From contig LKUE01000042.1 of NCBI GenBank assembly GCA_001412365.1, positions 1 through 6,479 of the forward strand: 6,479 nucleotides of DNA, given 5' to 3'. A program made the translations under genes and the position numbers. Below, one piece after another: positions 1,381-6,466 of this stretch. The DNA is from Desulfuromonas sp. SDB. Its GTDB lineage: Bacteria; SDB-A. The notes under the pieces were generated by a model. The model ran no database searches. It was given only the letters and a program-made list of their open reading frames with translations, and was not told the origin of the DNA. Position 1 is the first letter of the stretch, and each line of letters begins with the position of its first letter.

Positions 1381-2886
1381 CTAACTCCCACAAAAATTTT
1401 TAACTATTTCCCGATCATCGAAATGTTCAGTATGATCTTTGAATATCTGATAGTTTTCATGGCCCTTACCGCAAATTAACACCACATCGCCTTTACCCGC
1501 ATTGCTTAATGCAAATTCAATAGCTTCCTGCCTGTCTAGAATTACGGTAGGGGGATTACTAAATCCTTGGGAAATTTGTGTGGCAATTTCCCGGGGATCT
1601 TCATTCCGGGGATTATCATTGGTAATCACTGTTAAATCCGAATATTTTTCAGCAATTTTACCCATGAGAGGTCTTTTTCCTGGATCTCTATCTCCACCGC
1701 ATCCGAATACACAAATCAGCTTAGCTGAAGGGACATTGATAATTGATTTAACACTGGAAAGTAAACATTGCAGAGCATCAGGAGTATGAGCGTAGTCAAT
1801 AAACACGTTATAATCTTTAGTGCATTTTACCCTTTCCATTCTTCCTGGTATCAAGTTTAACTTGGCAATAGCTTTAGCGGTAACGGAAGGGGAAATCCCA
1901 TACTGGTGAGCCCAGCAAAACGCCCCCAGTGCATTCTGGGCATTAAACAAACCCGGCAGGTTTATGGTAATTTCAGTATGTTGATTCTGAAAACCAATAT
2001 CAATAACTGAACCCAGTGTATCGGTATTAATAATTTTCCCGGAATAATCCACCTTTTGCGCATGCAGGGGAAAGCCAGTTCCATCAACAGAAGTTCCAGT
2101 TATACCGTAAATCCATACAGGAACATTTAATCTCCGGATAAATTGGTCCACTCCTTCTATCGCTGCGCTGAAGCAGGCGAATCCATCATTATTTATGGCG
2201 CTGAACAGTTTCAATTTGGATTGAACATAATCATCCCAGCTGGGATGAACGTCCAGATGATCTCTTCCTAAACTGGTGAAAATTGCAGAGGAGAACTTAA
2301 TATTCACCGTACGGTTAATTTTTAACCCGTAGGAAGAGACTTCCATAACTGCCGCTTCAATTCCTTCCTGTTTCATCCTCCCCAGCAGACGATTTAATTC
2401 TAATGCAGGAGGAGTGGTATTCAGGGCTATTTCTCTTTCTTTTTCAATAAAATGCCCCACTGTCCCAATCATTCCCGCTTTTCTTCCTGATTCGGTCAAT
2501 ATCTCCTTGATCATAAACGCAGTGCTGGTTTTACCATTAGTACCGGTAATTCCAATAATGTCCATATTGCGAGAAGGATAACCGTAGATAAAGTCGCTGA
2601 TCTCCAACAATCTCTGTTCATACTTTTCCGGGGGCAGGGGAACTTCAATAATGTTCAAATTCTCATTTAAATCAGATCGGGGTTGAGTAATGATCATTTC
2701 AATTCCCCGGTTAACTGCAGAATCAATGAATCGGGCGCCGTCCTGGGTGCTTCCCTGAATAACTGCAAAGATATCCCCTGGATTTACTACCCTGGAATCA
2801 GAGCCCAAGCCGGTTATATTGATATTAGATTCTCCTGAATATTTTAAATCAGGAAATTGCTGAAGAATTTGTTCAATTGATTTCAA
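1381..2886 (-). CDS. murE: MurE, UDP-MurNAc-L-Ala-D-Glu--meso-diaminopimelate ligase
   Basis: MurE is a cytoplasmic ATP-dependent ligase that adds the third stem-peptide residue. In the 501-residue form the N-terminal Mur domain has GLGSDSRVVNPGDIFAVI, followed by the P-loop GITGTNGKTST at 112-122, NTTPPALEL near 156-164, MEVSSYGL, FTSLGRDHLDVH, a candidate carbamylated Lys at 224 (SKLKLF), NLPGLFNAQNALGA, IPGRMERV, IDYAHTPDAL at 363-372, FGCGGDRDPGKRP, DNPR at 424-427 and GKGHE at 473-477. DNPR is the signature associated with meso-DAP rather than lysine, so EC 6.3.2.13 is inferred. No ATG is available at the N-terminus. TTG at 2886 gives a normal start (MKSIEQIL) but has only a weak GGA about 8 nt upstream. 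TTG at 2919 would add 11 hydrophobic residues atypical of the family. Either choice overlaps the end of ftsI, by 14 or 47 nt, suggesting coupling. The family call is certain and the start is not. Confidence 0.96.
   Translation of the reverse strand: MKSIEQILQQFPDLKYSGESNINITGLGSDSRVVNPGDIFAVIQGSTQDGARFIDSAVNRGIEMIITQPRSDLNENLNIIEVPLPPEKYEQRLLEISDFIYGYPSRNMDIIGITGTNGKTSTAFMIKEILTESGRKAGMIGTVGHFIEKEREIALNTTPPALELNRLLGRMKQEGIEAAVMEVSSYGLKINRTVNIKFSSAIFTSLGRDHLDVHPSWDDYVQSKLKLFSAINNDGFACFSAAIEGVDQFIRRLNVPVWIYGITGTSVDGTGFPLHAQKVDYSGKIINTDTLGSVIDIGFQNQHTEITINLPGLFNAQNALGAFCWAHQYGISPSVTAKAIAKLNLIPGRMERVKCTKDYNVFIDYAHTPDALQCLLSSVKSIINVPSAKLICVFGCGGDRDPGKRPLMGKIAEKYSDLTVITNDNPRNEDPREIATQISQGFSNPPTVILDRQEAIEFALSNAGKGDVVLICGKGHENYQIFKDHTEHFDDREIVKNFCGS
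1385..1389 (-). promoter_or_regulatory. Shine-Dalgarno of murF
   Basis: GGGAG lies in the last codons of murE, 5 nt before ATG at 1379. It overlaps the alternative GTG start at 1391-1389, which therefore has no site of its own. This favours the ATG. Confidence 0.65.
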
Positions 2887-4537
2887 TAGATAAATCCAGA
2901 TGACGGTTATAGCATTCAATTTTCAATATCTCATTAACCATTTTTCTAAAGGCAGGTGCTGCCACTATGCCGCCATAATAACTGCCTAGGGGTTCATCAA
3001 TAATTACACAAATCAAATACCGGGGCTTTTCCGCAGGGAAAAAACCAATAAAAGAGGACACAAACTTATCCTCATAATATCCGCCCTGAGGTGATGATTT
3101 TTCAGCAGTACCTGTTTTCCCGGCAATATTTAAACCATGCACGGAGGCATTAGTGCCTGTTCCCTGATTAACCACCTCTACCAAAAGACTGGTGAATGTA
3201 TCTGCTACTGATTGGGTGGTTATTCTTCTTATCGTATCCACCGGATTATAATATACTTGACCGTTTCCATTTTGTACCCTGTCCACAATACGGGGTTTAA
3301 TCAGATATCCGTTATTGGCAATTGCTCCGTAGGCGGCACATAATTGCAAAGGAGTAATTGAAATACCCTGACCGAAAGCAGCGGAAGCGGTGGTAACATC
3401 GGTCCATTGTTCAAGTTTAGGTATAAATCCTGATACCTCTGCAGGTAGATTTATCCCTGTTTTTTCTCCAAATCCAAAAAGCACACAATAATTTCGAATC
3501 TTAAAATTTCCCGTTTTCAAAGCAATGTTGACAAATCCTACGTTGGACGAATGAATTACCGCATCTCGGAAATTATAAGGGGGATGAATTTCAGCATCGT
3601 TAATCAGCATATCTGCAATTTGAATCTTGCATTGTCCGGATTCTACTATCTCCTCTAAACCCACAGATTTTTCTGATAAAGCTGCTATTGCCGCAACAAT
3701 TTTAAAAGTTGAACCGGGTTCATATGACCAGGATATGGCTTGATTTGAATAGCTGGAGCCGACGCTAGCCATGGCTAAAATATCACCCTGATGAGGATCC
3801 ATGACTATAATAACTCCTCCCTTAGCCGAATAGTTAGTAACCACTTCATTTAAAATAGCATCAGCAGTTTCTTGAATGTCAATATTTAAGGTCAGGTATA
3901 TTTCGGCTCCGGAAAAACAAATTTTTGCTAATTCCGAATTGAGGGGATAGAGAATTCCCCGATGATTTCGAGCCAGGTCTGTACACCAGGATTCTCCTCG
4001 AAGATAACGTTCACAGGAATATTCTATTCCCGAGATACCCTGCCCTTCAAGATTGAGTATCCCCACTACTTTAGCCATCTCCTTCTGCCTTGCATATCTT
4101 CTGAGGTGATCGTAGTAAGTTCCAATGCCCCGGAAATTCAACCTGTTAATAGTATCTACAATTTGAGGGGAGATATCTCTTTTTATCCAGGTGAAACCTT
4201 TACTAGTTTCAATTAAGGCGTTGAAACTATCCATTTTGATGATATTTAAATCTTCCAGCATTGATCCTATTTCATTTGCCTGATCTAAACTCTCTGGATA
4301 CATATAAAGGGAAATGGTCTTCTGGGAATAAGCTAACATCCGTCCATTACAGTCACGGATAGTACCTCTTAAAATATCCGGTGAAAAATGATACGTGGTC
4401 CTGGAAATTGCCATTCTTCTAAATCGCTCAGATGAGGCAATTGCACTGACTTTAAATGAAAAGAAAACAGTTAATACAAATGCAAATAGTATTAAAAATT
4501 CCAATTTTTTATGCTTATGCAAACTGCTGAAATTCAT
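2873..4537 (-). CDS. ftsI: FtsI / PBP3-like class B penicillin-binding protein (septal transpeptidase)
   Basis: This is a 554-residue bitopic membrane transpeptidase that cross-links septal peptidoglycan together with the SEDS glycosyltransferase FtsW. It has a short cytoplasmic N-terminus rich in His and Lys, one transmembrane segment at about 13-33, and a pedestal domain starting with RGTIRDCNGRMLA at 57-69. The penicillin-binding domain carries all three active-site motifs: STFK with Ser276 and Lys279 (in YEPGSTFKI), SSN at 330-332 and KTG at 474-476 (AGKTGTAEK). AFGQGISITPLQL at 387-399 is also typical. No PASTA repeats follow, which fits FtsI rather than SpoVD or PBP2x. The canonical DRNG of the pedestal motif is DCNG here. 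The last 13 or so residues form a tail encoded largely in the murE overlap. Two bases separate its ATG from the ftsL stop; upstream is only a weak GAGAG, so coupling to ftsL is likely. Confidence 0.96.
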   Translation of the reverse strand: MNFSSLHKHKKLEFLILFAFVLTVFFSFKVSAIASSERFRRMAISRTTYHFSPDILRGTIRDCNGRMLAYSQKTISLYMYPESLDQANEIGSMLEDLNIIKMDSFNALIETSKGFTWIKRDISPQIVDTINRLNFRGIGTYYDHLRRYARQKEMAKVVGILNLEGQGISGIEYSCERYLRGESWCTDLARNHRGILYPLNSELAKICFSGAEIYLTLNIDIQETADAILNEVVTNYSAKGGVIIVMDPHQGDILAMASVGSSYSNQAISWSYEPGSTFKIVAAIAALSEKSVGLEEIVESGQCKIQIADMLINDAEIHPPYNFRDAVIHSSNVGFVNIALKTGNFKIRNYCVLFGFGEKTGINLPAEVSGFIPKLEQWTDVTTASAAFGQGISITPLQLCAAYGAIANNGYLIKPRIVDRVQNGNGQVYYNPVDTIRRITTQSVADTFTSLLVEVVNQGTGTNASVHGLNIAGKTGTAEKSSPQGGYYEDKFVSSFIGFFPAEKPRYLICVIIDEPLGSYYGGIVAAPAFRKMVNEILKIECYNRHLDLSIEIN

Positions 4538-4539
4538 CT

Positions 4540-4830
4540 TTATAAATCTCTCTTTATTTCAATCACCACAAAAGAATTGTTATTTTCAGGAGCCCATCTG
4601 TCAAAACCCAATTCAACACCCAAGCTGTCAATTTTTCTAACCGAGAGAAGCTGATCGGAAAGTTGAAGTTCCAGGGCAGCAATCTGCTGCTTCTTTTTCT
4701 CAATATCTTTTTCCATTTCAAAGCTTACTGTATCCAGATGCATCACCAGGGTTCTCAACATCAAGGTCATCAATAGCCAAAGGAAAATTAAACCGCATCC
4801 AATAATCAGTATCAGCTGAAATTTTTTCAT
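4540..4830 (-). CDS. ftsL: FtsL-like septum protein
   Basis: This is a small bitopic protein of 96 residues, the usual FtsL size. It has a short basic cytoplasmic start (MKK), one hydrophobic segment at about 5-29, and a charged heptad-like stretch at about 33-62 (DTVSFEMEKDIEKKKQQIAA) that should form the periplasmic coiled coil. Next comes RKIDSLGVELGFDRWAPEN, matching the loose FtsL/DivIC ending of a short helix, LG(F/M) and a Pro. FtsL pairs with a DivIC/FtsB partner and helps activate FtsW-FtsI. Sequence conservation in this family is weak, so the call relies on topology plus its place between rsmH and ftsI. Its ATG overlaps the rsmH stop as ATGA, with AAGG 8 nt upstream. Confidence 0.85.
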   Translation of the reverse strand: MKKFQLILIIGCGLIFLWLLMTLMLRTLVMHLDTVSFEMEKDIEKKKQQIAALELQLSDQLLSVRKIDSLGVELGFDRWAPENNNSFVVIEIKRDL

Positions 4831-5705
4831 GAGATGAACCTTATTATCCTTAGTTTTGCACTGCGGGACCGGGGATTTTTATTTCTTTCCTCTCGGGAAG
4901 GTTTTATCACGTGAGAAAATGAGGGTTTAGCCTGATTTTGTTGTTTCCATCTTTTCTGAAATTTCTTAATAATTCTGTCCTCACCGGAATGATAAGCAAT
5001 GGTCAGTAATACTGCTTCAGGCTGTATTATTTCAGGTAAACCTTCAAGAAATTCATTTAACTGGCTGTATTCCTGGTTAACTGCAATTCTCAATGCCTGA
5101 TAAGTTCTAGCCATTCTTTTAACTGCATTTTTACGGGGACCAGCTGATCTGATAATTTCTGATAAGTCTTCTGTAGTTTTAATTTCATTTTTTTGCTGAA
5201 ATATTTTATGTGCTAATCTTTTAGCAAATTGATTTTCTCCTCCCTGGAATAATATTTCTTTTAATTCATCCTCTCCTGACTTCATAATTAAATCCAAGGC
5301 GGTCATGGACTCGCTTTGATCCATCCTCATGTCCACCGGATAATTGTAACGGTAACTAAAACCCCGGGATGAATCTAGCTGTAATGATGAAACACCTAAA
5401 TCCAGAAGAACTGCATGAAATTTGGGAATATTATTTTCCTGGCAATATTTACTAATTTGCGAAAACTGCAGATGAATTAATTTAATCTGATTTTTAAACC
5501 CGGTCAGCTTTTCCTGGGCAATATCAAGTGCTTGTAAATCTCTATCTACTCCCAGTAATAACTGCGGATTTAAAGAGCGAAGTAAAAAAAAACTATGTCC
5601 TCCCAATCCTACAGTGGCATCTAGAAAATTCCCTCCATAGAATGGTGAAAATGCGGCAACAACAAAACCGACTAATACTGGTATATGATTACAAACTGTT
5701 AATAT
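4827..5705 (-). CDS. rsmH: RsmH (MraW), 16S rRNA (cytosine(1402)-N(4))-methyltransferase, with AUA start
   Basis: RsmH is an SAM-dependent enzyme that N4-methylates C1402 of 16S rRNA in the ribosomal P site. From the proposed start the protein has 292 residues, slightly short for the family. It contains the N-terminal NHIPVLV signature at 6-12, SAM motif I DATVGLGGHS at 29-38, GVDRD at 52-56, LLDLGVSS at 100-107, RGFSY at 114-118, DMRM at 125-128, RTYQALRIAVN at 200-210, AYHSGEDR at 237-244 (usually FHSLEDR) and NPRSRSAKLR at 277-286. No ATG or GTG lies between the in-frame upstream TAA and motif I. The first standard start, TTG at 5606, falls inside motif I and would destroy it. AUA at 5705 is 7 nt after AGGAGG and puts the usual six residues before the His of NHIPVL. 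The family call is firm and the start is inferred. The gene overlaps the STAS-like gene by 17 nt and ftsL by 4 nt. Confidence 0.92.
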   Translation of the reverse strand: MLTVCNHIPVLVGFVVAAFSPFYGGNFLDATVGLGGHSFFLLRSLNPQLLLGVDRDLQALDIAQEKLTGFKNQIKLIHLQFSQISKYCQENNIPKFHAVLLDLGVSSLQLDSSRGFSYRYNYPVDMRMDQSESMTALDLIMKSGEDELKEILFQGGENQFAKRLAHKIFQQKNEIKTTEDLSEIIRSAGPRKNAVKRMARTYQALRIAVNQEYSQLNEFLEGLPEIIQPEAVLLTIAYHSGEDRIIKKFQKRWKQQNQAKPSFSHVIKPSREERNKNPRSRSAKLRIIRFIS

Positions 5706-6015
5706 CTCTCTTCCTCCTGTACCTTTTTTGTATTATTTCTTTACTCCAGTCATGACCAGATAAATTTAGCACTTGAATGAAATAAGGTCTGACATTTTTC
5801 AATTTCAATTTTTTCCCCTTTACATTTAAGCGATTCTTCAACTTTTCCAAAACCGAACCTGATTTGTAGTGCAGGTAAATTAATTCTTTGAGATCAAAAA
5901 CTATTTCATCTTCTTCTTGATCGGCAACTGATTCCAGAAAGTTGATTACCTCGGGATGGCGAAAAGGATCAAAACTTCCGGACAGGTGAATTACTTTACG
6001 CTTTATCATGTGCAT
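5689..6015 (-). CDS. Small STAS-like domain protein, function unknown
   Basis: This 108-residue soluble protein has no signal peptide or membrane segment. Its pattern resembles a lone STAS domain of the SpoIIAA/anti-sigma-factor-antagonist and MlaB type: a first strand VIHLSGSFDP at 8-17 (G-x-x-D turn), a helix to about 30, EDEIVFDLKELIYL at 35-48 as the central strand, an amphipathic helix SVLEKLKNRL, then KGKKLKLKNVRPYFIQVLNLSGHDW at 66-90. In active antagonists a D-S-S/T-G motif with a phosphorylatable Ser/Thr follows the central strand. Here the region reads HYKSG (49-53), so Asp is missing and, in an ungapped alignment, Lys takes the Ser place. The C-terminus is very basic (KRYRRKRD). 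The gene sits 22 bp after mraZ and overlaps rsmH by 17 nt, so it belongs to the operon. AGGA lies 9 nt before the chosen ATG; an ATG two codons later is possible. The fold call is by pattern only, and no function can be assigned. Confidence 0.7.
   Translation of the reverse strand: MHMIKRKVIHLSGSFDPFRHPEVINFLESVADQEEDEIVFDLKELIYLHYKSGSVLEKLKNRLNVKGKKLKLKNVRPYFIQVLNLSGHDWSKEIIQKRYRRKRDINSL
5713..5718 (-). promoter_or_regulatory. Shine-Dalgarno that decides the AUA start of rsmH
   Basis: A perfect AGGAGG lies within the last codons of the STAS-like gene, as its tandem AGG AGG arginine codons. Seven bases (AAGAGAG) follow, then the ATA at 5705-5703. No ATG, GTG or TTG in the rsmH frame follows at a usable distance, which is the main reason for assigning initiation to AUA. 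Confidence 0.75.
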
Positions 6016-6027
6016 AGTTGTTTTTCC

Positions 6028-6049
6028 TATCTAAAATTTAGATATCTAA
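6028..6049. repeat. Overlapping AT-rich dyads at the mraZ/STAS junction
   Basis: Positions 6028-6044 form an inverted repeat with 8-bp arms (TATCTAAA, one base, TTTAGATA). Positions 6038-6049 form a perfect 12-bp palindrome TTAGATATCTAA. Together they give three alternating copies of TATCTAA in 22 bp, covering the mraZ stop codon and reaching the SD of the next gene. With no room for a loop the dyads look more like a possible protein site than an RNA hairpin. The composition is so AT-rich that chance is a real alternative. Confidence 0.35.
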
Positions 6050-6466
6050 TTTGTCAAAACTGTCCTCAATGGTTTTATACATTTTCTGTTCAACTTCCGA
6101 CAATGCATCCGGTGACCATAATTCAATCCGATTGCCTTGACCCAGGGCGACAAGTTGTTTATCAATGCCTACAAAATCCAGTAATTCTTGAGGTATCTTT
6201 ATCCTGCCCTTGCCGTCAATTTCAATTCTCTCCCCTGAACCAATAAAGTATCTTAAAACATTTCTAACTTCTGATTTACTTACGGGTAGAGAAAGTAATT
6301 TATTCTCAAAAATGCCCCAATCCTCTATGCGGTAAAGGTTAAGACATTTATCAAAACCTTTGGTTACAAAAACCTTTCTGACCTCAAGATCTTTTCTAAA
6401 TTTAGCCGGTAGAAAAAATCTTCCTTTAAGATCTAAATTACAAATATGTTTACCACTAAAACCCAT
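6038..6466 (-). CDS. mraZ: MraZ, transcriptional regulator of the dcw cluster
   Basis: MraZ is a ring-forming DNA-binding protein with two SpoVT-AbrB (swapped-hairpin) domains that binds direct TGGG-type repeats upstream of its own gene. In E. coli it represses the dcw operon. This copy has 142 residues, the normal length, with the first half-motif DLKGRFFLPAKFR at 12-24 and the second DGKGRIKIPQEL at 84-95, both with the expected D-x-K-G-R core. GQGNRIELWSPD at 109-120 is also typical. The ATG is preceded by AAAAGG with 7 nt spacing. It is the first gene of the cluster in this window. Only 13 bp upstream is visible, so the promoter and any MraZ-binding repeats cannot be assessed. Confidence 0.96.
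   Translation of the reverse strand: MGFSGKHICNLDLKGRFFLPAKFRKDLEVRKVFVTKGFDKCLNLYRIEDWGIFENKLLSLPVSKSEVRNVLRYFIGSGERIEIDGKGRIKIPQELLDFVGIDKQLVALGQGNRIELWSPDALSEVEQKMYKTIEDSFDKLDI

Follow-up and report, generated by a model that had tools for sequence, protein, structure and literature searches.

An ORF of 108 codons lying between mraZ and rsmH in the window, by which we mean the whole 6,479-nt stretch of DNA analysed here, is predicted to encode a single-domain STAS-fold protein, and STAS genes occupy the same slot of the dcw cluster in at least 17 bacterial families. The serine that is phosphorylated in partner switching (Ser58 of SpoIIAA) is missing from every mraZ-linked copy examined. 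We suggest, at slightly less than even confidence, that the protein is a phosphoserine-independent single-domain STAS adaptor of the dcw operon. To our knowledge, MraZ heads the most conserved bacterial division operon and its control is poorly understood; the serine-less STAS protein in this slot is a testable candidate for that control.

The window is one entire contig out of the 433 that make up a draft genome of 3.14 Mb. Its recognisable genes all lie on the minus strand, in the dcw order mraZ, STAS ORF, rsmH, ftsL-like, ftsI, murE, murF (Table 1). The contig ends directly upstream of mraZ, and no promoter-like site was found on the minus strand between positions 5400 and 6479. The ftsL-like gene gave no family match in profile searches. 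The longest murE frame begins at a TTG and shares 47 nt with the end of ftsI (window 2873-2919, minus strand), and the true start of murE may lie further inside this frame. The 108-residue ORF itself was present as the preliminary description had reported it, with an ATG start, a further in-frame ATG at codon 3, and a 22-bp gap between the end of mraZ at 6038 and its own start at 6015.

Table 1. Features of the dcw cluster in the window, with the evidence for each
Feature	Positions	Strand	Evidence
mraZ, first dcw gene	6038..6466	(-)	Pfam MraZ E 1e-27; TIGR00242 above cut-off
STAS gene, 108 aa, single-domain	5689..6015	(-)	Pfam STAS_2 and STAS; AlphaFold2 model; PDB matches; kept in relatives
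Tyr50 codon of the STAS gene, aligned with the SpoIIAA phospho-serine Ser58	5866..5868	(-)	Profile alignment to SpoIIAA; linked STAS proteins compared with unlinked ones
AGGAGG, likely rsmH ribosome-binding site within the STAS gene	5713..5718	(-)	One AGGAGG-N7-ATA, against a chance expectation of 0.07
rsmH	4827..5705	(-)	Pfam Methyltransf_5 E 9.5e-83; TIGR00006 above cut-off
ftsL-like gene; its short product has a single membrane segment at the N-terminus	4540..4830	(-)	Position and sequence only
ftsI (penicillin-binding protein)	2873..4537	(-)	Pfam Transpeptidase E 3.2e-68; PBP_dimer

The STAS-like strand-helix pattern noted earlier was borne out by profile searches and by structure prediction. 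The protein matched Pfam STAS_2 (E 7.9e-8, 32.8 bits against a cut-off of 29.2) and Pfam STAS (E 3.5e-7, 30.4 bits against 22.6), and its relatives likewise matched the Pfam STAS models. The AlphaFold2 model (pLDDT 84, pTM 0.75) showed the E-H-E-H-E-H STAS fold. Its best PDB match was RsbV (Foldseek E 2.6e-5, VIA Z 11.5), and its top fold matches were RsbV, TM1442, RsbS (Z 11.2) and SpoIIAA; the MlaB chains 7ch7 and 7cha (Z 9.8) were also among the matches. A PDB search with the single window sequence returned nothing significant (TM1442, E 0.69) and a family profile was required, which matched SpoIIAA with E 3.5e-16. The anti-sigma antagonist models TIGR00377 (23.6 bits against 53.45) and TIGR02886 (14.3 against 114.75) stayed below their cut-offs. 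The predicted order of secondary-structure elements in a Myxococcus mraZ-linked member was the same as that in the window protein. Because both Pfam cut-offs were passed and the model matched RsbV, TM1442, RsbS and SpoIIAA, the assignment stands, and on this predicted structure the ORF is a STAS-fold gene.

Conservation in the window's phylum was examined in four genomes of one family, the three others belonging to a sister genus. The order mraZ-STAS-rsmH was found in all four, so that the unusual slot described earlier is kept in the relatives, whose STAS proteins share 47-52% identity with that of the window. Across mraZ-linked STAS genes dN/dS was about 0.1-0.5, and these genes are under purifying selection. 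In the phylum pairs compared, the STAS protein was better conserved than RsmH. The retention in 4/4 genomes, together with the dN/dS values, shows that the reading frame is not a chance ORF.

To see how widely the arrangement occurs in bacteria, we first sampled 60 genomes, in most cases a single one for each family, of which 47 contained mraZ, and inspected the junction of mraZ and rsmH in about 42 families besides the window's. At most of these junctions mraZ and rsmH overlap or abut, in agreement with the earlier statement that rsmH usually follows mraZ directly. Seven families had a STAS ORF in the slot (G004, G009, G027, G028, G031, G042, G059); Pfam confirmed STAS directly in G004, G028, G042 and G059, and named loci gave the confirmation for the groups to which G009, G027 and G031 belong. 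The slot ORF of G053 (f51) is STAS-like by our own profile, without a Pfam match, and is a tentative eighth case. At loci L036, L050 and L052, mraZ and rsmH are 220-320 nt apart, and no STAS gene could be recognised in the interval.

As a single-sequence query against named genomes, the window protein found no relatives; an alignment-based motif scan of these genomes did, at eight loci, all with the order mraZ-STAS-rsmH. These belong to Abyssobacteria SURF_17 (NCBI phylum Hydrogenedentota), a Poribacteria-labelled MAG, a Latescibacterota MAG, two bacterial bins, two Myxococcus species and Citreicoccus. In Myxococcia, the class of Citreicoccus, a STAS gene lay between mraZ and rsmH at all 26 further mraZ loci read, and in Myxococcota outside this class one sampled family only (f211) had a STAS slot gene. 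Five further families (G098, G164, G174, G236, G241) were found when 241 genomes were scanned with a profile, giving the total of at least 17. Carriers whose phyla were searched represent at least four phyla, namely the window's, those of G009 and G027, and Myxococcota. None of 11 genomes without mraZ had a STAS gene upstream of rsmH, a number too small for significance by itself.

In the profile alignment, Tyr50 of the window protein (local sequence LHYKSG) falls on the position of SpoIIAA Ser58, and neither this protein nor any other linked member has a phosphorylatable Ser/Thr of the D-S/T-S-G kind at the N-terminus of helix 2. Among 44 mraZ-linked proteins the phospho-position is occupied by Tyr in 36, by Phe in four and by other residues in four, with no Ser or Thr, whereas 23/23 unlinked STAS stretches have Ser. 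In the 56-row set used for trees, Ser/Thr was likewise found in 0/31 linked and 25/25 unlinked sequences. Since the motif-based search contributed only two of the 44 linked proteins, the missing serine is not an artefact of the search. Proteins with Phe come from the three genomes nearest to that of the window and from a single genome of Myxococcia. Loci L170 and L181 (G236, G098) have Leu or Val at the position (ISLNVI, INVSGI) and group weakly in the tree.

With the motif columns included, the tree placed the linked group on one side of a single branch (93/83). With these columns excluded, two changes were needed, and a one-clade constraint was not rejected (p-AU 0.375); the alignment rows are short, and long branches occur, among them that of the window's family. 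The alignments thus allow a single origin of the mraZ-linked group.

The 17-nt overlap with rsmH claimed in the preliminary description holds if rsmH starts at the ATA at 5705-5703, where no usual start codon is present. Inspection of the frame on the minus strand gave this ATA as the sole table-11 start, in-frame ATG, GTG and TTG codons being absent from the stretch that runs from the upstream stop to the conserved HIPVL. An AGGAGG lies 7 nt upstream of it (window 5703-5718, minus strand), and the ATA may be either a genuine, rare start codon or an error in one base. The rsmH genes of the three relatives begin with an ATG that shares nucleotides with the STAS stop codon (AATGA), and in one relative the STAS gene has a stop-start overlap with mraZ as well. 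Control of rsmH by translation of the STAS gene, also proposed earlier, is plausible from the overlaps in the relatives; in the window itself the overlap hinges on the ATA start. A run of A prompted the idea of a programmed frameshift from the STAS gene into rsmH; this was rejected, since the two genes do not stand in the same relative frame in the window as in its relatives.

The position in the operon, the stop-start overlaps and the acceptor-less state together suggest a dedicated adaptor, made in amounts linked to those of MraZ and RsmH. Such an adaptor would be co-translated with these two proteins in fixed proportion and would remain bound to its partner, with no kinase to switch it off, so that its amount would set the activity of the partner. 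With the acceptor residue absent, a SpoIIAB/RsbW kinase could not switch the protein off at that site; other residues could be phosphorylated. Vibrio SypA is active as the S56A variant, which cannot be phosphorylated, and inactive as the S56D mimic (PMC4517449), and by analogy with S56A an acceptor-less STAS member may bind its partner permanently. We put the transcription regulator MraZ first as candidate partner, because it is the constant upstream neighbor and because none of the 11 mraZ-less genomes had a STAS gene before rsmH; RsmH, or a division or envelope protein encoded elsewhere, would come next. Distance correlations of the STAS protein with MraZ and with RsmH were both positive, and stronger for RsmH, and are not decisive for the partner.

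Two known roles of lone STAS proteins had been offered in the preliminary description, anti-sigma partner switching and partnership with lipid transporters (MlaB). If the protein were a classical anti-sigma factor antagonist, an RsbW/SpoIIAB-type kinase would bind and phosphorylate it, and a division or envelope sigma factor would thereby be controlled. The nearest folds, RsbV and SpoIIAA, and the profile match to SpoIIAA fit this role, as do four HATPase_c_2 matches above the cut-off in the window genome. Against it, the acceptor serine is missing from every linked member, and the three sister-genus genomes keep the STAS gene with no HATPase_c_2 match above the cut-off. No HATPase_c_2 kinase gene was found within the window operon. 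Judged from these sequences, classical partner switching is unlikely. The four HATPase_c_2 sites, of the anti-sigma kinase type, lie at G000:C283:7807-8154, C234:2412-2705, C393:22012-22371 and C206:1005-1337. The protein could instead be the MlaB of this organism, a subunit of the MlaFED lipid transporter encoded apart from mlaEFD. A single mlaE-mlaF-mlaD cluster, with no STAS gene adjoining it, is present in each of the phylum's four genomes, the dcw gene is the only strong profile match there, and the MlaB chains among the fold matches point the same way. The STAS gene nevertheless stays beside mraZ and not beside mla, and the carrier genome G098, 100% complete, has no MlaE match; nor have G053 (97% complete, its STAS assignment doubtful) and G004 (59% complete). 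In G027 and G059, a separate STAS gene lies near mlaE. Given G098 and these separate genes, MlaB does not serve as the general explanation; in the window's phylum the protein may have an MlaB-like role, and we regard the identification with MlaB as doubtful. In all four genomes of the phylum (L201-L204, G000-G003) the mlaE-mlaF-mlaD genes lie between dnaB and radA, with no MlaB-type STAS gene alongside.

The Tyr found at the Ser58 position in 36/44 linked proteins might reflect a change from a phosphoserine to a phosphotyrosine switch, the adaptor being controlled by a tyrosine kinase. Phe takes its place in the three closest relatives and in the one Myxococcia genome, so the hydroxyl is not required, and aromatic packing is a simpler account of Tyr and Phe at this position; we consider such a switch quite improbable. 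That the ORF has no role in trans and chiefly tunes rsmH translation by coupling is suggested by the stop-start overlaps in the relatives and by the AGGAGG located within the STAS gene. Action in cis alone is hard to reconcile with an amino-acid sequence kept over great distances at dN/dS of about 0.1-0.5, and with a STAS protein better conserved than RsmH within the phylum, and we give this explanation very little weight.

The preferred reading thus remains a STAS adaptor acting independently of phosphoserine. From the operon context we infer, as had been suggested before, a link of the gene to division or envelope control. More tentatively, the mraZ-linked STAS protein may be an old, unrecognised member of the dcw cluster that, independently of any kinase, regulates either RsmH or MraZ and, through MraZ, dcw transcription, in several phyla including that of Myxococcus. 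The presence of the gene at all sampled Myxococcia loci brings the question within reach of ordinary genetics, Myxococcus being tractable. The view that such an arrangement had not been described was supported by a literature search, most subscription journals lying outside it, which gave no account of a STAS gene between mraZ and rsmH and no paper connecting STAS proteins with mraZ or with the dcw cluster. STAS goes unmentioned in a study of dcw synteny, in which 17 genes of the cluster are listed (PMC8871954). The STAS domain family itself is known; the serine-less, mraZ-linked group in the dcw cluster appears to be undescribed.

Comparison of the window protein with known systems shows that SpoIIAA and RsbV, its best sequence and fold matches, are likewise single-domain STAS proteins of about 110 aa, but the window protein lacks Ser at the phospho-position, and its gene lies in the dcw cluster instead of beside a kinase and a sigma factor. 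RsbS of the stressosome shares the STAS fold and acts via protein-protein contacts. RsbS keeps its phosphorylatable serine and is encoded in an rsb operon, whereas the window gene has no RsbR or RsbT neighbor. MlaB is also a small cytoplasmic STAS protein, and works as a subunit of a complex without an anti-sigma factor, but it is tied to MlaFED, whereas the dcw STAS gene is tied to mraZ and rsmH even in a complete genome without MlaE. SypA of Vibrio fischeri is a STAS regulator with no evidence of sigma-factor action, and is active in a non-phosphorylatable form (PMC4517449); unlike the window protein, it keeps its serine, is switched by SypE and is encoded at another locus.
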